From: a virus
Reading direction: 5' to 3' (one strand)
Length of the DNA stretch: 64,000 nt
Virus record (IMG/VR): IMGVR_UViG_3300031576_000001
Location: 62,001-126,000 of that record
Position 1 is the first letter of the stretch, and each line of letters starts with the position of its first letter. Below, piece after piece: positions 1 to 64,000 of this stretch. Below the pieces are notes generated by a model, which saw only the letters and a program-made list of their open reading frames with translations, was not told where the DNA came from and ran no database searches. Both the position numbers and the translations under genes were made by a program.

Positions 1-52
1 GTACTCAACCAACTTCTTCGTGGACTTGCCCGTAACCTTGGTGGTAACATGA
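1..52 (+). CDS. 3' end of an upstream gene (partial)
   Basis: The second reading frame is open from base 2 to a TGA at 50-52 and encodes a hydrophobic, beta-like tail ending in VTLVVT. The TGA overlaps the ATG at 49 in an ATGA junction, the usual sign of translational coupling in this genome. Too little of the protein is present to say what it is. The frame of the next gene is also open back to base 1, so that gene could instead start outside the window. Confidence 0.45.
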   Translation, partial: YSTNFFVDLPVTLVVT

Positions 53-399
53 CAACCAACACCTTCAGCATTGATTACGCCGCGCTAGAAAAGTCTGTGG
101 CCGGTTCTCCCTCTGACTTTGACCTGTCCACCATGGAGGTTGCCTCCTCCTCGGGTACGGATGCTTTTCTGGGGCGCCGTACCCCCAAGACTGCCTCGTC
201 GCACAGGCTACGTGTTGCTTCTATAGATCAACTCAAGGGGTTTATGCGGCTGTCACAGGAGTCTTTGGTACACATGAGCACGCAAGACCTTTGGTTTGCT
301 CGCCGCGAGGGTGACGAGCTTGTACTAGAGCGCCTCTTTGATGACAACGGTAGCCCCTTGAAGGTTTTACCCCGTGAGACAGCGAACCGCCAGAGCTGA
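49..399 (+). CDS. hypothetical protein, about 106-116 aa
   Basis: Small soluble protein of unknown function with no signal peptide or membrane segment. It starts with ATG in an ATGA overlap with the gene before it. In-frame TTA at 367-369 lies 30 bases before the TGA. If TTA ends translation, the protein is 106 residues and the overlap with the next gene (GTG at 374) disappears. The residues after the TTA (PRETANRQS) look like random read-through. Its place at the head of the virion block suggests a minor structural or assembly role, which is inference only. Confidence 0.6.
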   Translation: MTTNTFSIDYAALEKSVAGSPSDFDLSTMEVASSSGTDAFLGRRTPKTASSHRLRVASIDQLKGFMRLSQESLVHMSTQDLWFARREGDELVLERLFDDNGSPLKVLPRETANRQS

Positions 400-3300
400 G
401 AGCTTTCTACCCGCCCCGCCCCAAGAGGAGGGGGCAGGTTTTGGTGCGCCCGTCTCTGCGGGTGAGCGCAAGATACCGAAGAACTTCCCGTTTGACCCCA
501 AGGCATTGCAGCCTCTAGCCAGGACCGTGTGGGCGTCGTCGGTAGCCTTGGGTCATGCTCTCACGGCGTACCGCAACTTCAACAGGGTAAAATCCTCTTC
601 GGTGTCCCCGGACGGCTTGCTAGGCGGGCGTGGTTACGTGCTCAAGGTCACGGACCTACGCACTCGACTCTTTCGAGCCTGTGAGGAGCTATCGTCGGTG
701 ATTGACACGTTGCACGACGAGATAAATGCGCCTCACTGGCAGCCCAAGCTAGCGGACCTGGACGCTAACTCGGCTGAGGACATCCTTCATCTTCTCGACG
801 AAGCCGATTCAACCATGAAAGACCCCGAGGAGGAAGCCGATGAGAAGATCGACGACCTGGAGTCTGAAAATGACGGTCCTGGGGGCACGTCTACCAAGGA
901 GCGCTTTGGTGATAAGGAGACCCCTGGCTCGGATCTGCCCAAGGGGGGCAACGCTGACGAGCTAACCAAGACGCCGGGTAGCTCACGCAACAAGCTAGCC
1001 TCTTGGGACTATCAGCCCGCGACCAACCCCAAGGACACCTGGACGAACATCCCCGGTGGACCCCGTGTGCCTTCTCTGGACAGGAATCTGATTGAAAACT
1101 CCCCTGGGGGCTCGGCTAACGTGGGCGAACCCTCTTCGGAGCGCAACAGGGAGCGCACCCGCGAAGAGACCGACGAGAACAAAGGTATCAAGTTTTACGC
1201 TGCCGTAGCCTACTCGGTACTACCAGACGGCTCCCTTGAGCCCCAAAACACGGTAGACGACTTCGGGCTTGGGTACGGCGCCAAGGGTCCAAACTACAAC
1301 CCCCCTCAGTCTGACGGCAAGGGTATTACCGGACCCACAAGCGGTCTACCCGCTGGACCCCCGGCAAGCAAGGTCAGTCCTTGGGATTCGGACTCGACCC
1401 TGGTAACGGAGCGCCAGGTAAATGACACCACGCGCCACGGACAGTCCAAGCTGCCCCAGCCCCCGCTGAACGTGTCCCCTGTCGCCAGGTCTGACTATTA
1501 CGAGGACAAGGGGCTCCAACCCCTTACCGCAGAGAGCACCCTACCCCAACCCCAGGACGCCATGACGCCAACCGATACCGATCTTCCTGGGGCGAGTGCC
1601 ATGTTTGACCCGCGCGATACCGGCTACCGTAGGTGGGACGTTATACCCGTGGTCAAGCCCGACCCCCTTACCAGTCGAAAGTTACCCATGGGTGATCTAG
1701 GAAATCTTGCAGACTTTTTCGAGGAAACCGCTGGACCCGTGGATCATGAGTGGCTTGCGGTAGACCCCTCCGAGTACGGAGCGTCAGAGGCGCTCCCCCA
1801 GCAAAACCTGGACATGGTTCCTGACCTGAAGGCGCTGTGGAGTCATGCCGACCGTGACCCTTCGGTCTACGCGGTGCCTAACCGGGGGATGCTAGAGAAC
1901 TTCGGGGACGCCAGCCTACGCCATGCAGAGCCCCCTGCGTCACTTACCAAGGAGGCGATGACTCGCGCGGCTCGCCAGATTCTCTTGGTGAACCAGGAAC
2001 CCGCCGCATTCTTTGACGCGCTGCGGCGTAACCATGACCTCTCGACGCTTCGGGCGCACAAGGGGGTACTGGCAAGTGTACTGGCAGAGAGGGGTCTCCT
2101 GGGTCCGTTCTACCTGGACTCCTTGGATTTCCCGGGGTGTAACAAGCGTGAGGGTGTAGCCCTTGCGCATCAATGGTACGCCTCTACGCCCTACGTTCTC
2201 GCCAAGCCTGACTGCGGTGGCTGTGTCTTTGCGAGCAAGGAGCTAGGCAAGGATCACTGCTCGGTTTTTGCCAAGACGCTGGTAGCCACCCCTCCTTATA
2301 CCGAGGCTGAGGCTCTTCGCGTAGAGGGTGCGCAAGCGGCGAGGGGGGTACAAGCCTCACAAGCGAGCACGCCCAAGGAAAGAATTCGTCTTGCCCTTCT
2401 AGCCTCCCCGGTGGTGAGCCAGGCGCTCCCCGAGACCAAGCCGGTCGAGAACACTTCGCGTACCCTCACCCCTGTCAAGCCGGCGCCCGCGGTTACCGTC
2501 GCGGAAGACCTGGCGCTACCCAAGGCAGCGGCGCTGGTGGTACTCACAACCCAGGTTCAGTCTGGCAAGGTCGCCTTTGACCAAGCCGCGCAGTGGCACG
2601 CCAGGATACGGGAAGCCTCTACCTCAGCAACCCTCTCCGGTGTGGTGACTGACCTCACGCAAGCGACACCGCTCGCCAAGAGGGTTTACGAGGCGAACCC
2701 TCAAGCCCCCGTAGCCCCCCTGCCCTCCATGCCCGAGGTGCAGCAAGCCCTGGTTACGGCAGCCAACCTCACGAAGAAGCGTGACGCTGCGTTCAACCTC
2801 AAGGTGGCTCAGGAGAAAGCCAAGCCGGTACTGGCTCTTCTACGCCGGGAAATGCTCAAAGGTCGAAAGCCTGGTCAGCTAGAGCAAGCGTTGCGCGCTT
2901 CTTTTGACGTGACGGATCTGGCGAGCACAAAGCCTTTCTGGGCGCCCCTTGTCAAAGAGGCTGGGCTTTATGGTGAGGTGTACCTACCCCAAGAGGCTTT
3001 TGCTGACTGTCTCCGGGGTGCTGACATTGTAGCCTCGTATCAGCCCACGTTGAAAGTCATTGTCTCTGGGCAGAAGTGCGCGGGCTGTGTGCATAACCGG
3101 GTAGGGTACTGCAACGTGTACCGTCGCCCGCTGGTAGCCGGCAAGGAAGCGGCATTTACGCCCACGGTGGCTCGCTCTGTTTTTGACGACAAGCTAACCA
3201 GGGGCACGCTACCCGCCTCGTCTTGGTCGCGGTACGCCAGCCTCACCCCCCGTGACGCGGTACAGGCCATGTACCGCGAGGAACAGGCGCAACAAGCCAG

Positions 3301-4293: not shown

Positions 4294-4304
4294 CGGGAGT
4301 GTAC

Positions 4305-4985
4305 ATGCCACCAGATGAAAATGAACCAAAGACAGAATTGGTCGAGGACAAACGCCCCCCGGTTCTGGTGCCTATGTACCAGAGAACCCGAGCCGACCAC
4401 GTAAGCGCCCTAGTCAGAGCCAAAGATGCTCACGTTCGCACGGACCCTCTGGTCAAGACGGTAGCTGACAAGAGCCCCCCGAAAGACATACTCGACGGGG
4501 TGCTACTTGAGCTAGCCAAAGAGGCTGCCGCGCTGGGGTTCGCAATTCGCGAAGTGGACAAGACCGGGCGGGATAGCTCCAAGCTGTCCAGGTCAAGAGC
4601 GGACGTGCTTGGTAAAATAGCCGTGATTGCCGTAGACCGTAATCGCATGGGTACGGACGAGCTAGACCTCCGGTCAAGCAAGGTCCAACTCCTGTTCAAC
4701 CTCTGGATTACTAACCTGTCCAAGGTCGCCCGCGATACCATGACACGCGAGCAAGCTGACCTGTTCTTCTCCAAGCTGACCGCTGCCATGGCCGGCTGGG
4801 AGAATGAGGCAGAGTCCAACCTGAAAGGCGTATTATGCCCTCTCAGGACAAGCGACCTAACACCCCGTCCATGGCGTCTCTGCTCGCCAAAGCAGGGCGT
4901 GACGTGGTGCAATCCCAGGACGCTGACGTTCCCGTTGCCGACCCCTCGGGACGCCCAGCTACCGCCAGAATCTTCAACATCATAG
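4305..4985 (+). CDS. helical protein upstream of terminase; candidate small terminase subunit
   Basis: ATG at 4305 is preceded by CGGGAG at a 5-base spacing; the GTG at 4299 is a weaker start choice. The first 176 residues are helical and charged. Residues after that are Pro/Arg/Ser/Thr-rich and read the terminase 5' end in a second frame. In-frame TTA at 4833-4835 overlaps the terminase ATG as TTATG. Treating TTA as stop gives a 176-residue protein and removes a 151-base overlap. Its size, helical content and position immediately before the large terminase subunit fit a small terminase subunit, but no motif proves it. Confidence 0.6.
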   Translation: MPPDENEPKTELVEDKRPPVLVPMYQRTRADHVSALVRAKDAHVRTDPLVKTVADKSPPKDILDGVLLELAKEAAALGFAIREVDKTGRDSSKLSRSRADVLGKIAVIAVDRNRMGTDELDLRSSKVQLLFNLWITNLSKVARDTMTREQADLFFSKLTAAMAGWENEAESNLKGVLCPLRTSDLTPRPWRLCSPKQGVTWCNPRTLTFPLPTPRDAQLPPESSTS

Positions 4986-6844
4986 ATTACATTGAGGCTC
5001 CCTGGGGCTTGGATATGAAGGTCTTTCCTGTCCAGCGCTTCATTATCAAGATGTTCTACAATCTCCCGCTAGATGACACGCTACCCGCGGGCGAGACGCA
5101 ACGCATCACGGTAACGGATATGTTCCGTACTAAGACATACCACACATTTACCGAGCGTGAGTATCTGCAATACCTTTATGACGAGGGGCGTTGTAATCTC
5201 TCAGAGCAAGACAACGACCGAAGAGAGCTTATCTTGGTGTGTGGGAGAAGGAGCGGCAAAACCCTCATAGCTGGCATTTTTGCTTCTTATGAGATATATC
5301 GCCTACTCTCTCTAGTGAATCCGCAGAAGTATTACGGACTACCGCAAGGTGACCGTATTCAGATAATCAGCGTAGCTACGGACAAGGAACAGGCGGGCAT
5401 TCTCTTCAACGGAGTCACGGGACACATTACCAAGTGCGACTATTTCACCCCGTACCTGGCACGTAACACACAGAGCAATGTCACGTTCCGCACCCCCTTT
5501 GAGATAGAGAAATACGGGGACACGATACGGCAGGGTGACGGCAAGTTTGTCTCGTACAACGGCAAGGCTAGCCTACGGCTGGCGTTCAAGTCGTGCATCG
5601 CTAAAGGGCTTCGTGGTTCTGGCAACATTGTCATTGTGCTCGACGAGTTTGCACACTTTCAGGTAAAGGGGCAGGCGTCAGCCAAAGAGATATACGACGC
5701 CATCACCCCGTCAAAAGCAGCGTTCTCGCCTAAAGACCCTACAAACCCTATGCGACCAATAGGAGTGGTGGAGTCTCGTGTCATCCTGATTTCCTCTCCG
5801 CTCAACAAGGAGGGTAAGTTCTACGAGCTATTCCACCAAGCCATGGCAAAGGGTCCAGGCTCCGAAAACCTCTTGGCGATTCAGGTGCCGACCTGGGAAA
5901 TGAACCCCACGGTAGAGGCTGGTTACCTCAAAGAGAAGTACTACTCAGACCCGCCCGTGTTCATGGTGGAGCACGGGGCAGAGTTTTCTGACCGCCTCCG
6001 GGGCTGGCTAGAGCGCGAGGAGGACTTGCTTGCTTGCATCGACCCGTTGCACCGCCCCGTGGACCGAGGGGTGCCCCGTGTGCCCTACTTTATGGGTATC
6101 GACGTGGGGCTCATCCATGACGGCACGTCTATCTTCCTCTCGCGCCTCGACGGGGACCGCATTGTGGCGGACTACCACGAGACCTGGCACGCAGGCATCC
6201 CCTGGAAAGAGAGCAACCCTCACCTTCTTAGCCCAGGGACCATGTACGCCAACGGGCTCGACAAGGTAGAACGCCTTGACTTTGACGAGATCGCCAACTG
6301 GATCGTCTCTCTCTGCCAACGGTTCTACGTGGTCGGGGGTCTCTTTGACCGCTGGAATGGTATCCCCTTGGAGCAAGCGCTACACAAGAGGGGTCTCACC
6401 CAGTTTCAGTCTGATTTCTTCTCAAAAGACCAGCGCAGCAAGATGTACCAGGCGGCAAAGATGATGATTTTCGACAAGAAAGTCATCCTGTATGACTGGC
6501 CGCGCCCAGAGGGGGGTAAGGTGGGGAGGTCACCCTTCATTCGTGAGCTTCTCAACCTTCAGGCACACCAGTACACTGCCAATTTGGTGGAGGTCGCCGC
6601 GCCCGCGGTTCCTGGGGCGCACGACGACACGTCAGACGCTTTTACTCGCTCGGTCTGGCTAGCCACGGAGCAGTTGAAAAACAGGAAGATCGTGGCTAGC
6701 CCCTTTGCAGGGGGTGCGCGCCCCACGTCGCCCGGAGCCTCCACGGTGAGCTACGCCGTGCAGAAAGCACGTAACCACGGGCTATTCACGGATAGACTCT
6801 CCCCTAACTCGGCTCTGGGTCGGCGCCTGACGCGGCGTCGCTAA
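4835..6844 (+). CDS. terL: terminase large subunit (DNA packaging ATPase-nuclease)
   Basis: 669 residues, normal for the family. The ATPase domain shows Walker A GRRSGKT near residues 138-144 and Walker B VIVLDEFAHF near 266-275, with the catalytic Glu after the Asp. The RNase H-like nuclease domain shows three acidic clusters: MGIDVGL near 420, GGLFDRWNG near 500 and HDDTSDAF near 596-602. The protein pumps DNA into the prohead at the portal and cuts concatemers. No in-frame TTA occurs in its 669 codons. The portal gene lies 2.3 kb downstream, separated by tandem paralogues of unknown function. Confidence 0.95.
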   Translation: MPSQDKRPNTPSMASLLAKAGRDVVQSQDADVPVADPSGRPATARIFNIIDYIEAPWGLDMKVFPVQRFIIKMFYNLPLDDTLPAGETQRITVTDMFRTKTYHTFTEREYLQYLYDEGRCNLSEQDNDRRELILVCGRRSGKTLIAGIFASYEIYRLLSLVNPQKYYGLPQGDRIQIISVATDKEQAGILFNGVTGHITKCDYFTPYLARNTQSNVTFRTPFEIEKYGDTIRQGDGKFVSYNGKASLRLAFKSCIAKGLRGSGNIVIVLDEFAHFQVKGQASAKEIYDAITPSKAAFSPKDPTNPMRPIGVVESRVILISSPLNKEGKFYELFHQAMAKGPGSENLLAIQVPTWEMNPTVEAGYLKEKYYSDPPVFMVEHGAEFSDRLRGWLEREEDLLACIDPLHRPVDRGVPRVPYFMGIDVGLIHDGTSIFLSRLDGDRIVADYHETWHAGIPWKESNPHLLSPGTMYANGLDKVERLDFDEIANWIVSLCQRFYVVGGLFDRWNGIPLEQALHKRGLTQFQSDFFSKDQRSKMYQAAKMMIFDKKVILYDWPRPEGGKVGRSPFIRELLNLQAHQYTANLVEVAAPAVPGAHDDTSDAFTRSVWLATEQLKNRKIVASPFAGGARPTSPGASTVSYAVQKARNHGLFTDRLSPNSALGRRLTRRR

Positions 6845-7177: not shown

Positions 7178-7179
7178 TC

Positions 7180-7773
7180 ATGCCAGACTTCCCCCGTAAC
7201 CGAGACTGTCACGCCCTCTTTCGGGGGGACTCGTTTCCGTCCCTCATTGACAACAATCTTGTCAACGGGGGCTGGAGTGGGGGGTCTGGCGTAGAGTGGA
7301 CCACGCCGTTCAAGGATGAGCCTGTGGTAACCCGTACCGATGGGTACGCTTGCGGGTTCATCCTGTTTGGGTCGAGTGAGTCGTCGGACCAGTACACTGC
7401 CAGTACACACCAGAGCCTCACCTACCGCTACAGTGAGATTTGCTCCGGGGGTTGGCTTATCTCGACCCTCAGTTACGAGAAGTACACCTACGCCTCTCGG
7501 CTCATCCCCCCCTTGGTGCTCATCAATTACCTGCCCACAGACCGGCTGGTATTCTCCCTGAGAGGGTTGTGGACCAAGGAGGACGAGTGGACCCTCTCAG
7601 GTGACCCGAGGGCGCCTAACCAGTACTACGCCGGGGGTGTGGTACAAACACCCACACAAGCCACGTCCTTCTACCTCACCTTGCAGTCCTACCTCTTATG
7701 CCATCTACCTACCCCCCAAGAACCCGAGACTGCGTGGTCTCTTACCGTAGCGTCCGCTACTCGGTCAGGGTAG
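7180..7773 (+). CDS. tandem paralogue 1 of 3, beta-rich virion-type protein
   Basis: First of three adjacent homologous genes. All begin with MP..x.TRDC-like residues and share STTYEKYTYASR-like and SLRGLWTKEDEWTLS blocks. In-frame TTA at 7696-7698 falls exactly where copy 3 has its TAG, and overlaps the ATG of copy 2 (TTATG). The 25 residues after the TTA read copy 2 in another frame and have no counterpart in copy 3. With TTA as stop the protein is 172 residues. The fold looks beta-rich with many Gly, Trp and Tyr, suiting a capsid-surface or fibre protein, but function is unknown. Confidence 0.75.
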   Translation: MPDFPRNRDCHALFRGDSFPSLIDNNLVNGGWSGGSGVEWTTPFKDEPVVTRTDGYACGFILFGSSESSDQYTASTHQSLTYRYSEICSGGWLISTLSYEKYTYASRLIPPLVLINYLPTDRLVFSLRGLWTKEDEWTLSGDPRAPNQYYAGGVVQTPTQATSFYLTLQSYLLCHLPTPQEPETAWSLTVASATRSG

Positions 7774-8300
7774 ACCCTGCGGTCAAGTTCTGGCAGGGGG
7801 GTCAGGGCTTTCGGTGGGACGACTCCCCCCTGGACGAGATCCGGGTTACGTCCACGGACGGCTACGGGGCGGGTTTTGCGCTCTTCGGGTCAGATGAGGT
7901 CCATGACCAGCTAACGGCCATGTCAGGCAACCAGCCGTTGCACGAGTTCTTGACGCTGGGGGTGGGCACCTGGCTTATCTCGACCCGGACTTACGAGAAG
8001 TACACGCTGGCGTCGCGGACCATTCCCCCGCTCATTCCCTTGGTCTACGCGCCCAACGAGCCATTGTACTTCAGCCTGAGAGGGTTGTGGACCAAGGAAG
8101 ACGAGTGGACGCTTTCACTGGACCCGAGGGCGCCCTCCCCGGTGGTGGCTCGCGTACAGATGCCCCCCTCTTTGCTAACCGATGACTACCTCTCCCTTCA
8201 CACGGCGCTTTTATGCCTGAGATCGCTCGCACCCGAGATTGTGTCCTGTTTTACAAGGGCGATGTGTACGCCGTGGAGACCAACCTCACGTTCTGGCTAG
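7698..8300 (+). CDS. tandem paralogue 2 of 3, beta-rich virion-type protein
   Basis: Second copy of the array, with start MPSTYPPRTRDC. It keeps YEKYTLASR and SLRGLWTKEDEWTLSLDPRAP. In-frame TTA at 8211-8213 overlaps the ATG of copy 3 and aligns with the TAG of copy 3. The 29 residues after it are read from copy 3 in the wrong frame. Probable mature length is 171 residues. The three copies arose by tandem duplication and have since diverged outside the conserved block. Confidence 0.75.
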   Translation: MPSTYPPRTRDCVVSYRSVRYSVRVDPAVKFWQGGQGFRWDDSPLDEIRVTSTDGYGAGFALFGSDEVHDQLTAMSGNQPLHEFLTLGVGTWLISTRTYEKYTLASRTIPPLIPLVYAPNEPLYFSLRGLWTKEDEWTLSLDPRAPSPVVARVQMPPSLLTDDYLSLHTALLCLRSLAPEIVSCFTRAMCTPWRPTSRSG

Positions 8301-10969: not shown

Positions 10970-13900
10970 ATGATGGACGGGAGACTAGCGACCAAAGACA
11001 AGCCCGAGCGTGAAGACGAGGAGGTGGACCGCCTTCATCGCCCCTCGCCTCACGTCAAGCCCCCCCGGCACGACAAGCGCCGTGAGCAAATACAGCCCGA
11101 CGCTGACCCGGACCTGGACGAGTCTGATCCTGACCTCTCCCTCAACCGCCGAGAGGTAGGGGGCTCATCCGTAGCCCAGCGCGTCTTGGCTCGTCTACTG
11201 CAAGCCAAAGGCGCCGAGACGGACAAGGTAACGGTACGTAACACCGAGACGGACAAGGTAGTCCAGGTCAACCCCGAGACCGTTCAAGAGAACCCCGGCA
11301 AGTACGAAGAGGTCAAGGACGACGGCTCCGAGGCAGAAGAGCCCCACCTGACCACGGCGATCCGTGAGAGGCTCAAGTCTGACCCTGGCTTTGCGTCGAT
11401 GGCCAAGGCGCTGTCAGACCCCAAGAGCATGGGGAAGATTGACGATGGGAAGCCCCTGCCGGAGACGCTGGCTAAAGTCTTTCCAGGGCTAAAGACCTTC
11501 GGTGAGGCACGCAAGACGGTTTCCGAGGCTAGTAAAGCTAGCCCGCCCGCCAAGAAGGTGCCTCCGGTCAAGCTACTCGACGACGCCAAGCCAAAGCCTG
11601 TCCACCCCCCGCGCCCTCCCCGCCCTCAGAAGCCAGCCAAGCCGGCGCCCCCGGACGTGCCCAACAAGGACCGCCCCGACAAGGACGCCCCCAGGGATAC
11701 CTACGACGGCAAACCCAAAGAGGAGGGACCAAAGCCACCCTCCAAGCGATACCTTGACGACGAGAAGCTAAAGCCCCCTGGCGCACCGTCACCCGGACCC
11801 AAGCCCGCACCCTCCTCTAAGGATGAGCCTGCCAAGCCGCCAGCGGAACCAGCTAAGCAAGAGGGTCAAGAGAAACCCCCTACCCAAGCGGAACCAACTA
11901 GGCAAGAGGGTCAAGCTAAGCCTACCCCCAAGGCGCAGACCCCTTTTGATGACTGGGTTGCCAAGGGGGGTCTCTCTGACCCTGGCTTTCAAGAGTACCT
12001 GGACAGTGCGCCGGAGAACCTACGGACTCCAGGTACTCCTGTCTTGGTGTGGAACCCCCAGAAGAAGACCCGTGAGCCCTTTGCAGACCTCCCTCCTGAG
12101 CAACAGAAGGCTCACTTTGAGGAGTGGTCCGCAGACACCAAAGCCAAGCAGCAAGAGGCTGAGGCTAAGGCAGAGGAGCAAGCCACCCTACAGCGAGACG
12201 CCCTCTACACGGAAGCCTTCAAGAAGAACCCCAAGGTCGCCAAGCTACTGCAAGCCCTGTCGGACCCTGCCTCTGAGCCGTCCAAAAGACTAGCCGAGCT
12301 AGGTAAGAAGAAGGGTGTGGGGGCTCTTGTGCCCGAGAAAGTATTCCCTGAGCTAGCCGGGCTGCCCACCCTTGAAGTGACCAATGACTTGGACCGCCTT
12401 GCCTCTTTCGCCAAGAGGACCAGGAAGGACTGGGCGCCGGACCCCTACGAGGGCAAGTCTGACCTGAAGGAATTTGTGGACGGGGTAGCCAAGGAGGAAG
12501 AGACCTATTTCCTAGAGTACGCTCTGACCCCGAAGAACAAGCCTCGGATCAAAGTACCCAAGGGTAAAACCCTCAAAGGGTACGTAGCCTCCCTTCCGGT
12601 CGCAGACCAAGAGAAGCTGTTCAACGACTTTGCGAAGCACCTCGACCAAAAGAACCTGAGCACTGACGTGCAAAAGCTGTCTGCCGGCTCCCCAGAGCTA
12701 GCCAAGACTCTGCAAGCCATGTTTGACCCTCGCTCCCCTCTCAGCAAGAAAGCTGCGGAGAATACACAGCTACCCGCTAGTGAACTGCACCCTAAACTAG
12801 CGCACTTCAAGAATGTAACCGTAGGAGAGCTTCTCAAAGCCAGTAAGCCCCTCTTGGTGCCCCCCAAGCTGCCTACGCGCGAAAACTTCACCTACCGACA
12901 GCAGCTAGACGCCCTCAACCTCTTGGACCGCACGTTCCCTGAGAAGACCGCCAAAAGACTCTACGAGCTACACCCAACAGACATTGCCTCGGTCGTAGCC
13001 GCGTACAAGGCTACGCAGTCCAAGGGCGCTACCCTCCCTGAGAAGCTGTTGAAGTCGGGTGGGTTTCAGACTGACATTAATAAGGTGCGACCCCCCTTGA
13101 CGTGGGAGGTCTCAGGTAAGACGGTCCCGTTCTCTAGCCTGGACGAGAAAGCCCAAACTGACGCCTACCTACAGCACAGGGCGATGGTTGTGGCTGCCAG
13201 CCTGCAAGCTGAGGACACACTAGCCTCGACCTGTGAGAAGGGCGGCGTCCCCAAAGAGGCTAGCCGGCTCTTCGCCAGGGTCAGGATGGACACCGTGCCT
13301 GGGGAGTCCCCGGAGGAGCGTACCGAGCGTGCGACGGTCATAGGACGCAAGGCTCACGACCACGCGGTAACCACGGCTGCCCCTGTCATTGAGAACCCCA
13401 AGGAAGCCCTGTCTATCTTCGCCCACGGTAAGCTCAGGGACGAGGCGACCCACAAGATCGCCCTGCAATACAGCAAGGGGGCAGATTATCGCTCCTTTAT
13501 TGACCGGTTCCTGTCACGCAAGGCAAAAGACCCCCTCTCTGAGCACGACACGGTGTCTGGCGCCATGTTCAAGGTCAAAGCCCTCTCCGAAGAGGTAGAC
13601 CGGCGCTCCAAGCAGTACCCCAAGGAAGACCAAGGCTTCTTTCGCACCATGAAGGGTGACCTACGGGCGTTCTTCATGGAAAGGCTAGCCAACCTGAGCC
13701 CCAAGAAGGCGGACCTTCTAAGCGTTGCCCTTGAGGACTCGCGTAGCTCTCCCTGGGCAGAGGGGCTGTTGCCGCCCAAGCCCCAAGCCAAGGGAATCAA
13801 GTCCTGGCTAAGCTCCCACCTGAAACTAGCCTCTTATGCCGGGGCTGTAGGTACACAGTTGACCGAGAGAACTAGTAACTACCGCGGGGTCGCCCCCCTT

Positions 13901-14497
13901 CCTCGCACTCCGTACCCCCCGTGGCTCCCCGTGGACCACGTAACGGAGGGTGACGCTACCCGCCTCTTGGCTGACGCCAGGAAGCGCCTGGACCTCTCCG
14001 TTCCCGGTCGCGTACCGGACAGTGCGTACCGAGAGGCTCTAGACCTCGCGGTCTACACCCTGGATAACGGTGCCTTCTCTCGTGGTCTGCACCCCACCGT
14101 GTACAACGCTCTCCTGGCAAAACTCTCTGGGCAACCTGTAGCCCCTACCGACACCCTCTTGACCGTACAGAAGAAAGCCATGCTCACACAGAAACTCGCC
14201 TCTGACCTTCGCGCCCTGGCTACCAAGGTAGCCGAAGAAGCCCCCCAAGCAGCCTTTGAGATCGTGGAGCTAGCCGAGAAGGTAGCCCAAGACCAAGGCG
14301 AGCAGGATCAAGCTCCCGAGCAGAAACAAGCTCAGGACCAAGAGCAAGGGCAAGGTCAGCAGCAGAAGCAAGCCTACCTTACGCTACGGTCCCTAGTCAT
14401 CAAGACGGCTCATGCCTCTCAGGACAAGGCACCCTTCCTGCCTATACTCCGGCACCTCAAGGCTCAGGGCTTATTTCTATCCCCAGCTTCTCAGTAG
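10970..14497 (+). CDS. very large Lys/Pro/Glu-rich virion-type protein
   Basis: 1175 residues between portal and protease genes. Residues about 180-330 form a Pro/Lys/Glu-rich disordered linker with a duplicated KQEGQ..P / RQEGQ..P unit. The middle is helical and hydrophilic, and the C-terminus has a Gln-rich patch (EQDQAPEQKQAQDQEQ). An SVAQRVLARLL segment near residue 63 resembles the motif shared by other small virion genes here. In-frame TTA at 14471-14473 lies eight codons before the TAG. Large internal or ejected virion proteins are common at this position, so that is the likeliest role. Confidence 0.7.
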   Translation: MMDGRLATKDKPEREDEEVDRLHRPSPHVKPPRHDKRREQIQPDADPDLDESDPDLSLNRREVGGSSVAQRVLARLLQAKGAETDKVTVRNTETDKVVQVNPETVQENPGKYEEVKDDGSEAEEPHLTTAIRERLKSDPGFASMAKALSDPKSMGKIDDGKPLPETLAKVFPGLKTFGEARKTVSEASKASPPAKKVPPVKLLDDAKPKPVHPPRPPRPQKPAKPAPPDVPNKDRPDKDAPRDTYDGKPKEEGPKPPSKRYLDDEKLKPPGAPSPGPKPAPSSKDEPAKPPAEPAKQEGQEKPPTQAEPTRQEGQAKPTPKAQTPFDDWVAKGGLSDPGFQEYLDSAPENLRTPGTPVLVWNPQKKTREPFADLPPEQQKAHFEEWSADTKAKQQEAEAKAEEQATLQRDALYTEAFKKNPKVAKLLQALSDPASEPSKRLAELGKKKGVGALVPEKVFPELAGLPTLEVTNDLDRLASFAKRTRKDWAPDPYEGKSDLKEFVDGVAKEEETYFLEYALTPKNKPRIKVPKGKTLKGYVASLPVADQEKLFNDFAKHLDQKNLSTDVQKLSAGSPELAKTLQAMFDPRSPLSKKAAENTQLPASELHPKLAHFKNVTVGELLKASKPLLVPPKLPTRENFTYRQQLDALNLLDRTFPEKTAKRLYELHPTDIASVVAAYKATQSKGATLPEKLLKSGGFQTDINKVRPPLTWEVSGKTVPFSSLDEKAQTDAYLQHRAMVVAASLQAEDTLASTCEKGGVPKEASRLFARVRMDTVPGESPEERTERATVIGRKAHDHAVTTAAPVIENPKEALSIFAHGKLRDEATHKIALQYSKGADYRSFIDRFLSRKAKDPLSEHDTVSGAMFKVKALSEEVDRRSKQYPKEDQGFFRTMKGDLRAFFMERLANLSPKKADLLSVALEDSRSSPWAEGLLPPKPQAKGIKSWLSSHLKLASYAGAVGTQLTERTSNYRGVAPLPRTPYPPWLPVDHVTEGDATRLLADARKRLDLSVPGRVPDSAYREALDLAVYTLDNGAFSRGLHPTVYNALLAKLSGQPVAPTDTLLTVQKKAMLTQKLASDLRALATKVAEEAPQAAFEIVELAEKVAQDQGEQDQAPEQKQAQDQEQGQGQQQKQAYLTLRSLVIKTAHASQDKAPFLPILRHLKAQGLFLSPASQ

Positions 14498-14514: not shown

Positions 14515-14922
14515 ATGGCTTTCAAGCTAGCAACACAAGACGCAGAGCGTATTCTTTCCAACCTGGACCAGGCGTCACAGGTCATCCAAGCCGGCGTAGA
14601 GGCAGGAACCCTCAAGCTGGCTTTCGAGGATGCCAAGGCGATTGTCAACTCACTGGATCAGATTGCCGACCGTATTGAGTACGGTACGTTTGGCAAGCAG
14701 TCCTTTGAGAAGAGGATGGCAGAGGTCATCAAGCGTGAGCCTGACGAGAAGTACATGGACACGTTCAAGAACCCCATGCAGCCCCACGTCACGGACAAGG
14801 ACGAGCCGTACATGGCCGCCTACTCGGATGACCAGTCCTCTGCCATGATTCACGGCAAGAGCACCACAGGGCGCCCGCTCGCTCCCTTACACGTCTCGAC
14901 CAGGAGGGTAGCCAATTGCTAG
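14515..14922 (+). CDS. hypothetical protein, 124-135 aa
   Basis: Starts with ATG 18 bases after the previous gene. Residues 1-70 are helical (AERILSNLDQASQVIQAG repeats in style with AKAIVNSLDQIADRI), followed by an extended acidic region. In-frame TTA at 14887-14889 sits eleven codons before the TAG. If it is the true end, the coding part no longer overlaps the TTG start at 14916. Its place in the head operon suggests a head-assembly or scaffold helper; the function is unknown. Confidence 0.65.
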   Translation: MAFKLATQDAERILSNLDQASQVIQAGVEAGTLKLAFEDAKAIVNSLDQIADRIEYGTFGKQSFEKRMAEVIKREPDEKYMDTFKNPMQPHVTDKDEPYMAAYSDDQSSAMIHGKSTTGRPLAPLHVSTRRVANC

Positions 14923-15626
14923 ATTACTGGGCACTCGCCAAAGACTTTCACCAGGGGGACGCGGTTCAGAAGATCAACCCCGTCAACGGGAGTCTTGGTC
15001 CCTACGTGGGCGTTATCAAGCACGCTCACCCGGGGCTGGGGGTGCTTGACATTCAGTGGCCCTTTGGTGTCGAGCGCATTCACCCGGACGAGGTAGTCAA
15101 GGTCAACCCTGAGTTGATGTTGCACCTACCGCCCACGCTCAACCAAGTTTACGGTACGTGGGACACCCGGAGGCTGGCGTCCGCGAGAACCTCTTGGTAC
15201 CCCTTCCCGCCGGGCATCTATACGGACATGGCTCAGGCTTGGCACCACGGCAGGGGTGCTGTGGGCGTGTACGACGACCTTTACCGCAAGTACTCGGGGC
15301 TAGACGACCTAGTGCTGAGAGGCGAGGTCAGCAAGTTCTACACTGCCGCCAAGGTCTTTGGTGACTATCGTGTAGCTCACCACGCGGTAAGGACCGCGAG
15401 CTACTGGGTAGCCGAGAACCGGCAGTACAGGGTCACGGCGGACGAGCTAGACGCCCGTAAGCCCAGGTGTCCCAAGTGTGGGACACGGATGCGCAAGACC
15501 ACCTACAAGATGAAGAAGGGTGAGCGTCACCGCTTGCTAGCTTGCCCCAAGGATCTCTTCTTGGTGAAGACCACGGACATGCTTGGACCCGACGGAAAGG
15601 CAGTGGACTGGTTAGCGCCAGCCTGA
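14916..15626 (+). CDS. protein with C-terminal zinc ribbon, 232-236 aa
   Basis: The TTG at 14916 is chosen because GGAGGG lies 8 bases upstream. The N-terminal half resembles a small barrel that starts with a QGDAVQKINPVNG segment. The C-terminus contains CPKCGTRM...ACPKD, a probable zinc ribbon of which three cysteines are visible. In-frame TTA at 15612-15614 lies four codons before the TGA. It is flanked by head genes, so a structural role is likelier than a regulatory one, but neither is shown. Confidence 0.65.
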   Translation: MLDYWALAKDFHQGDAVQKINPVNGSLGPYVGVIKHAHPGLGVLDIQWPFGVERIHPDEVVKVNPELMLHLPPTLNQVYGTWDTRRLASARTSWYPFPPGIYTDMAQAWHHGRGAVGVYDDLYRKYSGLDDLVLRGEVSKFYTAAKVFGDYRVAHHAVRTASYWVAENRQYRVTADELDARKPRCPKCGTRMRKTTYKMKKGERHRLLACPKDLFLVKTTDMLGPDGKAVDWLAPA

Positions 15627-20625: not shown

Positions 20626-20637
20626 AAGGAAACTACC

Positions 20638-43553: not shown

Positions 43554-44960
43554 GTGGTTTACGCCAGGGACAGAAACCCACCCCCCACCCTAGAGTACCG
43601 AGCTACCCCGTGGCCGCTCCCTCCCCTTGAGGTATTTATGACTGGTGGGGTACCAGGGGTGTATGACCTACACTGGACACCCCCAGCGATACTCACCGGC
43701 AACGGGGGCTTCTGCCTTGTGGGGGTCAACGTCTACCGTAGCTTTGACTCGGAGTATGGCCCGTACCATCGGATAACGGAGCTACCTGTGGGCTCCCTGT
43801 ACTGGCAGGACCGGACGGGTAACGAGCTGGTTATCGAAGAGGACGTGACCGACCGGGTGACCCTCAAGGGTGACGCCGGTTCTTTCCCTCAGAACCCACG
43901 GTGGGCTTTCCAGGTCAGGTACCCTCCCATTGTCCGAGAGGGTAGCCAGGCTACGCCTACCCGCATACCACAGGACGTGAGAGCCTTCGTGGACGGGGTA
44001 GAGACTGCCGTGCTAGCCGTCTGGGGTGACACGGGGGAGGTCGAGATTGACACCCACCTGTACCCTAACGTGACGTACCAGACCCTCGACAAGCCACTAC
44101 TGCCCTCTCCGGGGTCTCGGGTGACCGTGACCTACCGCAGGAACCGTTCTCTCTTGCGGACGGACTTGAACACAAGGGTCTTTTACCGTGTCACCTCGGT
44201 AGCCTACCCGGCTTCTTGCTCCGCGCCTCACCAAGAGGACTTGCTAGAGACCCCTTTGGACCGTGCCCCGATGGCTTCTACACAGGAGACGGAAAAGCTG
44301 GACTGGGTATGGCGCGACGCGATTGAGCGCAACCGGTGGATTCTAGAGCAAGGCGGGGAGCGCGTGAGGGTCTTTATCAAGAAGACCGTGGGCGTGCCGT
44401 GTTTCTGCTTCCAAGAGCCCAGACACAAGCAGCCTCTAGCTGACTGCCGGGACTGTTACGGGTCAGGAATCCTTGGGGGTTACGAGGGACCGTGGGATAT
44501 ACTCATTGCCCCTGACGACGCTGAGCGACGGAAACGACAGAGTGAGAGGGGCAGGACCATTGAGCACAGTTACGAGACCTGGACAGGGCCGTCACCTCAA
44601 CTGGACCAGCGAGATTTCCTGGTCAAGTTGAACGGCAGGCGATACTCGATAGGTGCCGTGCGTACCCCCACAGCAAGGGGGATGGTCTTGCAACAGCACT
44701 TCACAATGAGTCAGCTCGACGAGAAGGACATACGCTACAGCGTCCCTCTAGGTAACCCCGTCAAGCACGTAGCTACGACGTTCACGCCGCTTTTCGCGCC
44801 ACCACCCCCAGACATTACCAACCACCCCACCGTGCCCGAAGAGATTGAGCTAAAAGGGCGCACCCGGGCGTGGGTTAACACCTCGTACTTACGACCGCTG
44901 GCTTATCACTCATTGCGCTTAGAGGCACACCATGGCTTTCCTATCTGGTTTCAAGTTTGA
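43554..44960 (+). CDS. neck/tail structural protein with FnIII-like domain, 445-468 aa
   Basis: GTG at 43554, close after the preceding gene. Residues 35-85 are fibronectin-III-like (GVYDLHWTPPAI ... YWQDRT). The middle is beta-rich, then a Cys cluster CFCF...CRDCYGSG near 285-305 and a conserved-looking block (APDDAERRKRQSERGRT, YSIGAVRTPTARGMVLQQHF) I associate with virion proteins of large phages. In-frame TTA at 44889-44891 follows NTSY, and a second at 44919. Ending at the first removes the 29-base overlap with the next gene. Confidence 0.7.
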   Translation: MVYARDRNPPPTLEYRATPWPLPPLEVFMTGGVPGVYDLHWTPPAILTGNGGFCLVGVNVYRSFDSEYGPYHRITELPVGSLYWQDRTGNELVIEEDVTDRVTLKGDAGSFPQNPRWAFQVRYPPIVREGSQATPTRIPQDVRAFVDGVETAVLAVWGDTGEVEIDTHLYPNVTYQTLDKPLLPSPGSRVTVTYRRNRSLLRTDLNTRVFYRVTSVAYPASCSAPHQEDLLETPLDRAPMASTQETEKLDWVWRDAIERNRWILEQGGERVRVFIKKTVGVPCFCFQEPRHKQPLADCRDCYGSGILGGYEGPWDILIAPDDAERRKRQSERGRTIEHSYETWTGPSPQLDQRDFLVKLNGRRYSIGAVRTPTARGMVLQQHFTMSQLDEKDIRYSVPLGNPVKHVATTFTPLFAPPPPDITNHPTVPEEIELKGRTRAWVNTSYLRPLAYHSLRLEAHHGFPIWFQV

Positions 44961-48475: not shown

Positions 48476-49621
48476 ATGTACGCCTACCTCCTCTCCCCCT
48501 TGAAGCGTAGACTCCTCTTGGAGCTTCAAGAGAGCTTCACAAGACACCCGGTCTACCACAAAATAGTCCCCTTTATCCAGAACAGGTTCGCTTTTGATGA
48601 GCGCCCTCAGTACGGGATCGTCATGAAGGGCGGCTCTGTCACCCCGGTTCAGCTAGCGGCAGACCACCATTTGGGGACCGTCGTGAGTCACGTCATGCTG
48701 GCGTACTTCGGTCAACCGGTCTTCCCTCTGGAGTGGGTCAGGGAAGACACGGGGGCAATACGAGCCAACCGCAACGTCATGCCTACCCTCCCGGGCGTGT
48801 ACTACCTGGAGGTTCTACAAGCACCCACCGACCCTCAGCGCCCGGGTCAGTTCATCATTGACCCCTTGTTGACGGTGACCGATGAGTTTCTCTTGCAATT
48901 CGAGACGGGGCTGGAAACCAGCGTCACCCTAAAGCACCCACCCCTCTCAGGGACGCTCCGTGTGTGGGAGAACCGCAGGACTCTTCTCAGAGAGGGGGTG
49001 GACTACACGGTAGACTACCCCACGGGCACCCTTACCCTGTTGACCCCCTACCGAGCCCGAGCGTACCTCACGGCGGACTATCGTTACCCTGTGGCGAGCA
49101 TTGGGCCCGTAGACTTCTATTGGAACCGAGCGGACGTGTCCACGCTCCCCGGCGTGGTCCTGGCTTTTGGCAAGCGTGCCAAGAAGGGTGACAAGGTGGG
49201 CGTGGTTGTCTACCCAGACCGAGTAGACACCGCCAGAGCCTACGGAGGGCGTATCGACGCCAACTTTGACCTCGACGTGATCGCCCGGGACAGTAACCAA
49301 GTCGAAGAGATAGCCGACTACGCCCTCATGGCCTTTTGGTATGAGAAGCGGTCCTCACTGTCTTTTGAGGGTATCGAGGTCATGGAGTGCAGCATTTCCG
49401 GGGAAAGTGAGGACGTGTACGACGAGGCGGGCGATGACTACTATTACCAAGCCTCTCTGTCGCTCAGGGTTCAAGCCGACTGGGAAGTACACGTACCGCT
49501 GCCGCTCACAATTTCTCGCGTCACTCCCGAGCCAAAGCCCCTCGCTGGCGCTGGCTTGTACTTTGCCGCGCACCCCGTGATCGTCGGGCGGAATAACGAC
49601 TACGAGCGCCTATTAGGGTAA
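48476..49621 (+). CDS. neck/tail structural protein, 379-381 aa
   Basis: Strong SD (TTAAAGGAGAAGG) before ATG. N-terminal 70 residues are helical and hydrophobic in patches (YLLSPLKRRLLLELQESF). The rest is beta-rich with repeated YTVDYPTGTLTLLTPYRARAYLTADYRYP, an Ig-like pattern found in phage tail proteins. In-frame TTA at 49613-49615 is one codon before TAA (TTA GGG TAA). Position just before the sheath favours a tail-completion or neck role. Confidence 0.65.
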   Translation: MYAYLLSPLKRRLLLELQESFTRHPVYHKIVPFIQNRFAFDERPQYGIVMKGGSVTPVQLAADHHLGTVVSHVMLAYFGQPVFPLEWVREDTGAIRANRNVMPTLPGVYYLEVLQAPTDPQRPGQFIIDPLLTVTDEFLLQFETGLETSVTLKHPPLSGTLRVWENRRTLLREGVDYTVDYPTGTLTLLTPYRARAYLTADYRYPVASIGPVDFYWNRADVSTLPGVVLAFGKRAKKGDKVGVVVYPDRVDTARAYGGRIDANFDLDVIARDSNQVEEIADYALMAFWYEKRSSLSFEGIEVMECSISGESEDVYDEAGDDYYYQASLSLRVQADWEVHVPLPLTISRVTPEPKPLAGAGLYFAAHPVIVGRNNDYERLLG

Positions 49622-49688: not shown

Positions 49689-50132
49689 ATGCCCAAGTAC
49701 ACCTTCGCGTGCCCGGATTGCGAGCTACTCTTTGACCGTACCCTCAAGCTAGCCAGCCACTCAGAGCACCCCTGCCCTCTTTGCAAGAGGCTAGCCCCAC
49801 GCCAGTGGTCAGAGCAAAACTTTGCAGCCTCTTTCGCGGTCCCTGCTAACAAGCCTACAGGGAACACGGGGGTACACGACCTGGATAACCCTACCGCAGA
49901 CAAAGCCGTGGGACGGTCTGCTTTCTCTCGGTGGGAGTCCTACGAGGGGCGCAAGGAAGTCAAGGAAAAGGCTCGCCAAGAGGGCGGTACACACGCACTC
50001 ATCCGTCACGACGACGGGCAACACACCGACTACGAGCCAATGACCGCCCTTGGGCTTGACGCCCATCGTAAGCTCGCCAGGGAAGCCTACAGCAAGGCAA
50101 AGAAATCTTCTATCCTACCCAGCTTAGGGTAG
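49689..50132 (+). CDS. FmdB-type zinc-ribbon protein 2, 145-147 aa
   Basis: ATG at 49689 (MPKYTFACPDCELLF); the open frame upstream starts at 49632 but lacks a Shine-Dalgarno. CPDC...CPLC gives an FmdB-like N-terminal zinc ribbon, followed by a charged helical tail. It is the second protein of this layout, with 28062 the first. In-frame TTA at 50124-50126 is one codon before TAG. Confidence 0.65.
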   Translation: MPKYTFACPDCELLFDRTLKLASHSEHPCPLCKRLAPRQWSEQNFAASFAVPANKPTGNTGVHDLDNPTADKAVGRSAFSRWESYEGRKEVKEKARQEGGTHALIRHDDGQHTDYEPMTALGLDAHRKLAREAYSKAKKSSILPSLG

Positions 50133-56438: not shown

Positions 56439-56699
56439 ATGACTACCAAGGTTTTCAGCATCGAGTTCGAGGTCCACGGGCTCAACCACGTCATCAACGG
56501 CACGGTCGAGGGCACCGCCGTTACGGTCGAGGAGGTTGGTGTCGAGTCGAGGCGCACCAAGACCGACAGGTACGTCTCCTGGTACAACGAGTTCACGAAG
56601 GACGCCTTCGTCGCGGAGTTCTCCGACAAGATCGAGCCGCTGGCGCGCAAAGCTGCCAAGTTACCCGCCCCCCGGTGTACCGTAGGCTCCCATGGCTAA
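56439..56699 (+). CDS. small hypothetical protein, 74-86 aa
   Basis: Carries leader element D. The sequence VFSIEFEVHGLNHVINGTVEGTAVTVEEVGVE is beta-rich, followed by a helix (YNEFTKDAFVAEFSDKIEPLARKAAK). In-frame TTA at 56661-56663 follows KAAK; the eleven residues after it look unrelated. Ending at the TTA removes the overlap with the next ATG at 56692. Probably expressed with the early-type genes that share the leader. Confidence 0.6.
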   Translation: MTTKVFSIEFEVHGLNHVINGTVEGTAVTVEEVGVESRRTKTDRYVSWYNEFTKDAFVAEFSDKIEPLARKAAKLPAPRCTVGSHG

Positions 56700-57339
56700 G
56701 AAGCGCGTCACGGACTGGGCGGAACCCGCCATTGTTCACCTTGACCAGTGCGCGGGGCGACAAGTCATGGGGTACTTTGTGCGCCCCTCGACTACCTTGG
56801 TAGTGACCCGCCAGGAGTGGTGCGTGGTCCCCCAGAGAGGGTGTTACGCCAATTTCCTCATGAAGGACTACGTAGTCCTACACGACATGGGCAACGAGGA
56901 CAGGTCACACCTTACCCCCCTCCTACAGCGAAAGCTGGGTCTCAACCTGAAAGCCTCTTCGCTGGCGGTTCACAAGGAGACGGGGCATGTTTTCCAGTGC
57001 GAGTGGACGCACGAGGGGGACGAGACCTGTTGTGCCTACCTGGACCCTCTACCCTCCAGCCTCATCGTACCCGCCCCATACCGGAAGGGGCTCCTTGTGA
57101 GGGTGGATACCAAGCGACCCTGGGGGTGGTGGTTGCACGAGAGGGAGCTACACGACTTCATGAACCGAGAGATAGGCTACCGTGACCTACGCCGGTCTCT
57201 TGGTGTCAAGCTCTACGTGGACCAGATCACGGTTTGCGTCGAGCCGGTGTACGACGCTCACGAGCGGATCAATTTTCAAACCGTCACGCATGACAGCGCG
57301 GACCAAGGCACGGGCAAAGAGGGCTCTGTATGCCTCTGA
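56692..57339 (+). CDS. hypothetical protein, 215 aa
   Basis: Mixed alpha/beta, Cys- and His-rich (HLDQCAGRQVMGY, QCEWTHEGDETCCAYL), without a recognisable enzyme motif. The ATG follows CCGTAGGCTCCC, a weak ribosome binding site. The 3' end overlaps the next gene by 10 bases. Function unknown. Confidence 0.55.
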   Translation: MAKKRVTDWAEPAIVHLDQCAGRQVMGYFVRPSTTLVVTRQEWCVVPQRGCYANFLMKDYVVLHDMGNEDRSHLTPLLQRKLGLNLKASSLAVHKETGHVFQCEWTHEGDETCCAYLDPLPSSLIVPAPYRKGLLVRVDTKRPWGWWLHERELHDFMNREIGYRDLRRSLGVKLYVDQITVCVEPVYDAHERINFQTVTHDSADQGTGKEGSVCL

Positions 57340-57962
57340 GCCCCTCATTTCTCAAACCAGTGGGCGTAGCGCCCAAGGAGGGTGTAGCCGTGGGTGTTGA
57401 CTTTACAGCCAAGTTGTACGTGGGTTTCATCGTGTACGAGGAGGACTTCTGGACACACGCGACCGGGGAGCCTCACTGTCCCGAAGAGGGTCACCCTACA
57501 CCCAGGGGGGGCGCTATCTTCTGTGACCAGTGCGGGCGCAAGCTCATGCGTACCGTGGGTGCGAGTATACCCACCCCAGGGTTTCAGTATTACCTCTCGC
57601 TAGACGGGTTCAGTGCTGAGGAGGTCTGGCGAGGGTGGGCTACGGTGTCGGACAGTGACCTACACTTTGTTGACGTGCGCTATAGAAATCAGGAGCCTGA
57701 CAAGAGGTACCTGTGCCTCTTGGTGGGGTCCACGACGGCTTTCTACTACGAAAACTCGGGCAACGTGGTACACCCCCGGGACATGGTAGCGGAGGGCTTC
57801 ATGGTGTCGGGGTTGGCTGAGAGGGTGAGAAACCTCTTGGCGTGCCTGGGCAAGCCGGTGAATGACTTGCGGTGGGTCTTGTCGGCGGACGTGCTTTTAC
57901 TTGTGCCTGTAGTCAAGAGCAGGGTAAAAACCCTCTCCATACCCCCCGAGACTGTAAGCTAA
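57330..57962 (+). CDS. zinc-ribbon-containing hypothetical protein, 189-210 aa
   Basis: ATG at 57330, overlapping the previous gene. It contains CPEEGH...FCDQCGRK, a probable zinc knuckle near residues 50-72, and a beta-rich remainder (FQYYLSLDGFSAEEVWRGW). In-frame TTA at 57897-57899 lies 21 codons before TAG. The residues after that TTA look more protein-like than other tails, so this is the least clean TTA case. Function unknown. Confidence 0.55.
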   Translation: MPLSPSFLKPVGVAPKEGVAVGVDFTAKLYVGFIVYEEDFWTHATGEPHCPEEGHPTPRGGAIFCDQCGRKLMRTVGASIPTPGFQYYLSLDGFSAEEVWRGWATVSDSDLHFVDVRYRNQEPDKRYLCLLVGSTTAFYYENSGNVVHPRDMVAEGFMVSGLAERVRNLLACLGKPVNDLRWVLSADVLLLVPVVKSRVKTLSIPPETVS

Positions 57963-63188: not shown

Positions 63189-63269
63189 GAGGGTGTCCTA
63201 CTGGGGTGGTTCCGTCTACGCTCCCCCTGAGCGTGCTGAGCTAGCTGCCCCTGTGCTACCCTCCCCAGG

Positions 63270-63989
63270 GTGACACCCTCCTACGCACCCCTCCCCTTGC
63301 ATTTGCGATACGACCCCATTACTCGCCCCTCACCCCAAGAGGCGGACACCGGGGTCGTGGTCTTTTCAACGCTGCCCGCGTTGTACGAGAGCCTCATCCT
63401 CGGTGCGCCCCTACCAAGCACCCTGGTCATCCGGCACTTGACCACGCCCACCCTCTTGGCAGGTACCCTCTTCCTTCACCGGGAAACGCTACTCTCACCC
63501 CTCACGCTGCCCCTGGTTTACGGTCTCGACCTCGCTGAGCGTGAGGGCTTCCCAGCGACGGCTCACCTACCGTCCCTCCCCGAGCTAAGGCTACCCTATG
63601 CCTCTCAGCCCAAGCCAGAAATCACTGCCCGCATAGGGGCTACCGTCGCCACGCTAAGAGACTACCTCGCCTGTCCACCCCCAGAACTACCCAAGGGCGC
63701 CTCTGTGCTTGACGTAGGCTCCAACGGGTTCGTTGTGGCTGAGGGTCTACGCACGCCCCTCCCCCTCTACCAGCAAGGCTACCTGCGGGGTGTCATCTTC
63801 CCCGTAGCCCCCTTCACTACAGTCACCATCTTCAAGAAAAGCCGCCTCGTCCCCATGGACCTTGGCTGCGCGCAACGCTACCTCAAAGCCCTCGACTCTA
63901 GCCTTGGTGTCGCCTTTGACCCCCTCTCCCTCTTGGTGCAAACCCGGCTCACCCGCGAAGAGGTAGTCAAGGTGCTCACCTACTGCTGA
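63270..63989 (+). CDS. hypothetical protein, 239 aa
   Basis: GTG at 63270, with no strong Shine-Dalgarno. The protein is Leu/Pro-rich (LPALYESLILGAPLPSTLVIRHL), alpha/beta and without motifs I recognise. TGTGCTACCCT upstream could be an extended -10 box. Ends in TGA near the window edge. Confidence 0.5.
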   Translation: MTPSYAPLPLHLRYDPITRPSPQEADTGVVVFSTLPALYESLILGAPLPSTLVIRHLTTPTLLAGTLFLHRETLLSPLTLPLVYGLDLAEREGFPATAHLPSLPELRLPYASQPKPEITARIGATVATLRDYLACPPPELPKGASVLDVGSNGFVVAEGLRTPLPLYQQGYLRGVIFPVAPFTTVTIFKKSRLVPMDLGCAQRYLKALDSSLGVAFDPLSLLVQTRLTREEVVKVLTYC

Positions 63990-64000
63990 CCCCCCCCCTG

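Follow-up and report, generated by a model that had tools for sequence, protein, structure and literature searches.

Can a leucine codon serve as a stop in a phage? The question is raised by a 64,000-nucleotide (nt) stretch, hereafter the window, that covers positions 62001-126000 of the 322,633-base IMG/VR record IMGVR_UViG_3300031576_000001. TTA encodes leucine in nearly all life, and an original prediction made from the window held that here it acts as a stop codon, listing 28 positions at which it would do so. The record carries terminase, portal and capsid genes, which mark it as a tailed phage with a giant genome (GC 58.6%) rather than as a mitochondrial genome. From analysis of the whole record, we regard it as nearly certain that translation would terminate at TTA in this phage. 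It is also very likely, as a fuller reading, that TTA (UUA) is a fourth stop codon beside TAA, TAG and TGA with all other codons standard, that a host-supplied release factor, most plausibly of the RF2 type, reads UUA, and that the host shares the code.

TTA at the ends of genes

Codons were counted over the whole record in 316 greedy open reading frames (ORFs) of table 11, about 99,700 codons in all. With 159 occurrences, TTA is rarer than any other of the 61 sense codons, and where it occurs it is concentrated at 3' ends, as the original prediction had proposed: its share is 2.0% among the last five codons versus 0.03% among those lying over 200 codons away from the end. Within 30 codons of an ORF end, 93 of 9,480 codons are TTA, versus 14 of 44,577 beyond 200 (odds ratio 31.5, Fisher P 3e-55). 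In the long table-11 ORFs of the window, in-frame TTAs likewise cluster in the last 30 or so codons, and the bodies of the long structural and enzyme genes (669, 607, 1429, 585 and 1602 amino acids, aa) were rightly described as free of TTA.

A context test that does not presuppose TTA as a stop was applied to all 64 codons, asking whether the 40 in-frame codons downstream score as coding when the 40 upstream are strongly coding; the codon-usage score was trained on ORFs of at least 300 aa minus their last 60 codons. After any of the 60 other sense codons the coding signal continues in about 60-87% of cases, and at TTA in only 8-15%, compared with 9-13% at TGA and about 20-28% at TAA and TAG. 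The few inspected TTAs with coding on both sides have a new in-frame start within a few bases, often with a ribosome site. Long table-11 ORFs still contain sixteen TTAs, all of them located in the tRNA cluster, before the probable start or at a boundary between genes.

We also called genes independently of the first reading, with TTA set as a stop and a codon-usage model. The record then holds 334 genes, ending in TGA (141), TTA (96), TAA (55) and TAG (42), so that TTA is the second commonest gene end (about 29% of genes) and is present in each 20-kb stretch bar the last 2.6 kb. The window has 69 called genes, 27 ending in TTA, 22 in TGA, 14 in TAA and 6 in TAG. All 28 coordinates given for the window are correct and 27 of them are called gene ends; 41364 on the minus strand is not. 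The gene call added no further TTA end to that list.

A back-up stop within five codons follows 24 of 88 TTA-ended genes and 42 of 183 other genes, which is no excess, and six TTATG stop/start overlaps of one base in the record resemble the TAATG or TAGTG found at other ends. TTA thus seems to stop well on its own. Three of the TTATG overlaps fall at listed window positions (4833, 7696 and 8211), and at the first of these the stop reading removes, as anticipated, an overlap of 150 bases with the start of the terminase gene.

The sequence around TTA has features of its own. The tetramer TTAA is strongly avoided on both strands of the record (196 versus 580 expected), and the base after a TTA stop is A in only 2 of 88 genes. 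In 9 of 88 genes the TTA stop directly follows TGG (Trp), many more than the share of TGG among codons would give; examples are at window positions 15612, 33380 and 34940. A TTAG frameshift that reads the codon as TAG was considered and rejected, as C or T follows many of the TTAs.

Comparison with relatives that use the standard code

Relatives were taken from 68 loci found by terminase search and 80 by capsid search in IMG/VR, together with LR745208.1 and Tunturiibacter phage Tunturi_5. These two huge phages and the IMG/VR genomes G001-G004 and G008 belong to the same clade as this phage, with capsid identity of up to 89% (IMG/VR; 82% to LR745208.1) and terminase identity of up to 59%. They carry tRNA clusters as this phage does, and several have a transfer-messenger RNA (tmRNA). 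They differ in that TTA is leucine and their tmRNA tags end in standard stops. TTA in relatives aligns with leucine of this phage in 50% of columns, matching the rates for CTA (52%) and TTG (54%), which is why we read it as leucine there. No convincing 3' crowding of TTA was found among the roughly 150 loci, a few short contigs being too small to judge.

Relatives stop where this phage has TTA. Homologs exist for 52 of the 96 TTA-ended genes, and the best hit has its standard stop within 10 residues for 73% of TTA-ended genes versus 67% of the phage's own standard-stop genes. In none of these 52 genes does an alignment extend past the TTA by more than a few terminal residues. Similarity resumes far past a TTA in five cases, and all five are separate genes in relatives. 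Alignments that crossed TTA in a broader search proved to be shadow frames, with none left when limited to gene frames. The capsid protein is a clear example: its homologs end in GAFNPRG..R.V.TR. followed by TGA, TAG or TAA, and that of this phage ends in GAFNPRGECRMVITRA followed by TTA.

No TTA was found at a conserved internal leucine. The homology-covered codons in gene frames number 49,824 and include 5,049 other leucine codons and not one TTA; relatives with equal GC have TTA at rates (98 of 114,686 and 73 of 85,400 codons) that would give about 42. For all 60 other sense codons the standard residue is both the top and the most enriched one in homology columns; TTG is leucine by 851 columns and TCA is serine. 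TAA, TAG and TGA remain gene ends. Only two TAG ends are crossed by any alignment, one of poor quality, and the listed TGA and TAA crossings look like shadow-frame or gene-end artefacts. A search of IMG/VR for the capsid C-terminus followed by TTA gave no other relative with a TTA stop, and the same search with TAG, as a control, gave 19 matches.

Transfer RNAs and tmRNA

ARAGORN finds 39 tRNAs in the record, 38 of them in one cluster. The leucine tRNAs have the anticodons GAG, UAG, CAG and CAA, and from this near-complete tRNA set a tRNA-Leu(UAA), which would have spoken for TTA as leucine, is absent. None of the five leucine tRNAs, UAA included, is missing from relatives G001, G004 and G008.

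Within the cluster, at record 30256-30633, lies a tmRNA missed by ARAGORN that matches Rfam model RF00023 over positions 1-374 of 374, with 52.8 bits against a gathering score of 47. Its tag frame reads GCC AAC GAC AAC GTT GAA GCT GCT CCT CTC GCC CTC GCG GCG TTA, a 14-residue tag (ANDNVEAAPLALAA) with TTA at the tag's stop position. By the standard code the frame would run to 42 residues, and a short tag results only with TTA as a stop. Tags of relatives (ANDEAVLQAA, ANDNSYASAAIAA, ANDNIEGERMARAA, ANDNSAMPVAA and ANDNSYALTAIAA) are of the ANDN/ANDE type, 10-14 aa long, end in AA and are each followed by a standard stop; of two further tags, the one that ARAGORN gives for L106 seems doubtful and that of L104 was left unread. 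As the tmRNA is an RNA gene, its evidence is independent of the protein-coding arguments. When other phages were searched for a tmRNA tag that ends in TTA, eight matches came up, none a tmRNA by its frame, and no tag-like DNA was found in IMG/VR.

The tRNA set has further peculiarities. The leucine tRNAs are 74-81 nt long with short variable loops (5159-5234, 6677-6757, 7112-7185 and 7866-7942 of L002, which is record 20001-40000); leucine tRNAs of relatives are mostly 83-89 nt, with a long variable arm, and the serine tRNAs of this phage are 87-88 nt. A leucyl-tRNA system of an unusual kind in the host may lie behind these short loops; the pattern of the short-loop tRNA-Leu(CAA) was found nowhere else in IMG/VR. 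At record 25064-25150 ARAGORN missed an Rfam-tRNA-like gene with about 14 extra anticodon-loop bases and an internal hairpin (GTCCCCAGGGAC), possibly an interrupted tRNA, perhaps the otherwise missing Trp(CCA). A lone CUA (amber) tRNA lies far from the cluster at record 307803-307877 on the minus strand. There is one possible TAG read-through, at record 306081, and TAG otherwise behaves as a stop; general recoding of TAG by this tRNA was rejected, as TAG gene ends are crossed in only the two cases above.

TTA sites in the window

The sites are given below in window coordinates, each line opening with the TTA itself and its strand. "Ends" means a predicted stop, and homolog ends, in relatives, are offsets in residues from the TTA. 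Two control genes close the list.

367..369, plus: ends gene 49..369 (106 aa); 24 homologs, all ending within 5 residues, median offset 0
1682..1684, plus: ends gene 374..1684; next gene in the same frame, ATG at 1688; two separate genes in relatives
4833..4835, plus: ends gene 4299..4835; TTATG overlap with the terminase ATG; 13 homologs, all ending at the TTA, median offset 0
7696..7698, plus: ends gene 7180..7698; TTATG; 41 homologs, 98% ending within 5 residues
8211..8213, plus: ends gene 7698..8213; TTATG; 41 homologs, 100% ending within 5 residues
14471..14473, plus: ends gene 10970..14473; 54 homologs, median offset 0
14887..14889, plus: ends gene 14515..14889; 57 homologs, 91% ending within 5 residues
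15612..15614, plus: ends gene 14916..15614; 73 homologs, 75% ending within 5 residues
18550..18552, plus: ends intein-containing gene 15631..18552; called end; best homolog ends 8 residues away
19800..19802, plus: ends gene 18570..19802; called end; 61 homologs, median offset 17 residues, none aligned beyond the TTA
21526..21528, plus: ends major capsid protein gene 20638..21528; C-terminus near the same residue in 86 of 90 homologs
26272..26274, plus: ends gene 25333..26274; 56 homologs, median offset -3
27620..27622, plus: ends gene 26369..27622; called end; 48 homologs, none aligned beyond the TTA
29117..29119, plus: ends gene 28478..29119; 30 homologs, 90% ending within 5 residues
29749..29751, plus: ends gene 29161..29751; 13 homologs, median offset 0
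32900..32902, minus: ends gene 32900..33103; called end, no homolog; coding signal lost downstream
33380..33382, minus: ends gene 33380..34009; called end, no homolog
34940..34942, minus: ends gene 34940..36175; called end, no homolog
37191..37193, minus: ends short gene 37191..37388; then, in the same frame, GAAGGAGG and the ATG of the next gene
39939..39941, plus: ends gene 39066..39941; 4 homologs, median offset 0
41364..41366, minus: in-frame TTA of the original prediction, the sole listed site without gene-end support
42911..42913, minus: ends gene 42911..43237; called end, no homolog
43521..43523, plus: ends gene 43236..43523; called end; one weak homolog, offset 30
44889..44891, plus: ends gene 43638..44891; 4 homologs, all ending at the TTA
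49613..49615, plus: ends gene 48476..49615; 8 homologs, all ending within 5 residues
50124..50126, plus: ends gene 49689..50126; 4 homologs, all ending within 5 residues
56661..56663, plus: ends gene 56439..56663; called end; downstream coding score -11.2
57897..57899, plus: ends gene 57330..57899; called end, no homolog
4835..6844, plus: terminase large subunit, control gene; no TTA in 669 codons; relatives at 59-22% identity
9107..10930, plus: portal protein, control gene; no TTA in 607 codons; 48.8% identical to LR745208.1

At the sites 1682 and 37191 the next gene follows in the same frame. After the TTA at 1682, residue 1 of the second protein of L030/G002 aligns at the window ATG 1688. 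After that at 37191, a ribosome site and a start lie between the two coding parts (GAAGGAGGGGCCACATG). The region 7180-8716 holds three paralogous genes in tandem, with a common LWTKEDEWTLSxDPRAP motif and linked by TTATG overlaps.

Release factor, host and alternative explanations

Bacterial RF2 takes only A at the third codon position, and RF1 takes A or G. UUA alone stops here while UUG stays leucine, which predicts a reader of the RF2 type. The record was found to hold no RF-1 family gene, no GGQ motif in a release-factor context and no SmpB, and family scans, which covered most proteins outside the window, gave no translation-termination or synthetase genes among the families listed, two of the lists running to 25 families. 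Since the record has yielded no release factor and TTA stops occur all along it, a factor already in the host is favoured, and we consider it quite likely that UUA is read by a host-supplied factor of the RF2 type. In such a mechanism a class-I release factor of the host, most plausibly an RF2 with a changed codon-recognition site, would read UUA, the host bacterium would share the UUA-stop code, and the phage lineage would have moved into that host, losing tRNA-Leu(UAA) and internal TTAs. Two relatives, LR745208.1 (L127) and G018 (L129), encode RF-1-family proteins; that of G018 has 217 aa, lacks the N-terminal part and has PPN near the position of the RF1 PxT motif.

We searched 84,980 species genomes for a host in which a conserved ribosomal protein C-terminus is followed by TTA. 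S11 gave no match and S9 gave two, both rejected. L292, a MarineAlpha3 metagenome-assembled genome (MAG), has TTA inside many genes, and in L291, a Clostridia MAG, S9 is broken upstream and TTA is used as sense at 5.5 per 1000. The S9 gene of L292 (7630-7674, minus strand) has TTA in place of a stop just before a terminator hairpin; we read this as a mutated stop or an assembly error, the locus using TTA as sense elsewhere. The search is a weak negative, because success needs that particular gene to end in TTA.

Might TTA instead be a stop during infection only, with the phage changing decoding, by an unknown release factor or by removal of the host tRNA-Leu(UAA), in a host that keeps the standard code? 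We find this unlikely, though it deserves some weight. The phage brings about 39 tRNAs and a tmRNA, much of its own decoding set, most of its genes have no assigned function, and some relatives, as noted, encode RF-1-family proteins. Yet the record shows no candidate release factor or SmpB, and TTA ends occur record-wide rather than in one module, so that the early genes would depend on a change that has yet to take place. Stalling at a hungry codon followed by rescue also cannot end the tmRNA's own tag.

The same point bears on a second alternative, that nothing decodes TTA and ribosomes stall and are rescued, giving apparent 3' ends. The absence of the cognate tRNA from the record and the presence of a tmRNA speak for it, but it would leave every structural protein, the capsid included, tagged or lost, the codon is the second commonest gene end, and tmRNA rescue could not resolve a tmRNA frame that itself ends in TTA. 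Stalling at the end of its own tag would presumably disable a rescue RNA, which speaks against this explanation, and we hold it to be very improbable. Least credible of all is that TTA is a very rare leucine codon tolerated at C-termini, as in high-GC genomes: GC here is high, and no codon is rarer than TTA in the parts of LR745208.1 and Tunturi_5 that were sampled, but relatives of equal GC have 0.85 TTA per 1000 without comparable 3' crowding, this phage reaches 20 per 1000 over its last five codons, and relatives' proteins, the coding signal and the tmRNA tag all end at TTA.

A fourth stop codon, UUA, with a host-supplied, RF2-type reader remains our preferred reading, and several points count against it. 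The support for termination at TTA is all computational, and the code is seen in one record, its close relatives using the standard code. No host emerged from the search, and the release factor is inferred rather than seen; the phage may encode one non-homologous to those known. The record, which is linear and lacks repeats at its ends, may not be complete, in which case a tRNA-Leu(UAA) or a release factor could lie outside it.

Precedents and implications

To our knowledge, code changes in bacteria and phages turn a stop into an amino acid or swap amino acids, and sense-to-stop changes are confined to organelles. The original prediction knew of no bacterial or phage case, and the literature we searched, with subscription papers and preprints outside its scope, likewise yielded UUA stops only in organelles. 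NCBI genetic code 23, of Thraustochytrium (labyrinthulean) mitochondria, had been named as a code with this stop. The likeness holds in that UUA stops and all other codons are as in table 11; it does not extend to the genome, which there is mitochondrial and of an unrelated lineage and here is that of a giant tailed phage encoding tRNAs and a tmRNA of its own. Code 23 is also not the sole example, as UUA is a stop in more than one organelle, including a plastid (PMC12574857).

In that plastid, of peDinoflagellates, UUA changed from leucine to stop on bacterial-type ribosomes, occurs only at gene 3' ends and is linked to an RF2 Ser204 substitution; the 2025 report names it the first sense-to-stop change outside mitochondria (PMC12574857). 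UCA is also a stop there, unlike in this phage, where TCA is serine. Across organelles, UUA stops without UUG correlate with RF2 Ser204 changes, and stops at both UUA and UUG with mtRF1a changes (PMC12574857; PMC6821328). The mitochondria of Marsupiomonadales and Pseudoscourfieldia resemble this phage in a leucine-to-stop change with loss of the cognate tRNA (PMC12574857, PMC6821328). They differ in that UUA and UUG both stop, a change linked to mtRF1a, whereas TTG of this phage is leucine and has tRNA-Leu(CAA). With UUA as a stop, UUG as leucine and no UUA-reading tRNA in the record, this phage matches the organellar RF2-type cases in these three respects. Phages with stop-to-sense recoding, such as crAss-like phages with code 15, likewise have a non-standard code (PMC9523058; PMC11210395). 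In those phages (codes 15 and 4) the change runs in the opposite direction; here sense becomes stop, and TAA, TAG and TGA remain stops.

It is likely, in our judgement, that the phage reflects an undiscovered bacterial lineage with a cellular UUA stop by way of an altered RF2 and with an unusual leucine tRNA system of short variable loops; a sense-to-stop code would then be seen for the first time in a cellular genome, and likewise in a virus. Codetta, a code-inference tool in wide use, is by design blind to sense-to-stop changes (PMC9825746), and a screen of codes in 250,000 genomes did not model stops (PMC8629427). Standard gene calls would therefore silently add false tails, and more cases may hide. 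With hundreds of genes under it, a code with a TTA stop would be sustainable in a large genome, and a phage that uses it implies a bacterial host with the same code. Release-factor specificity becomes directly testable as well, the question being how RF2 must change to take a U as the second base of a stop codon.

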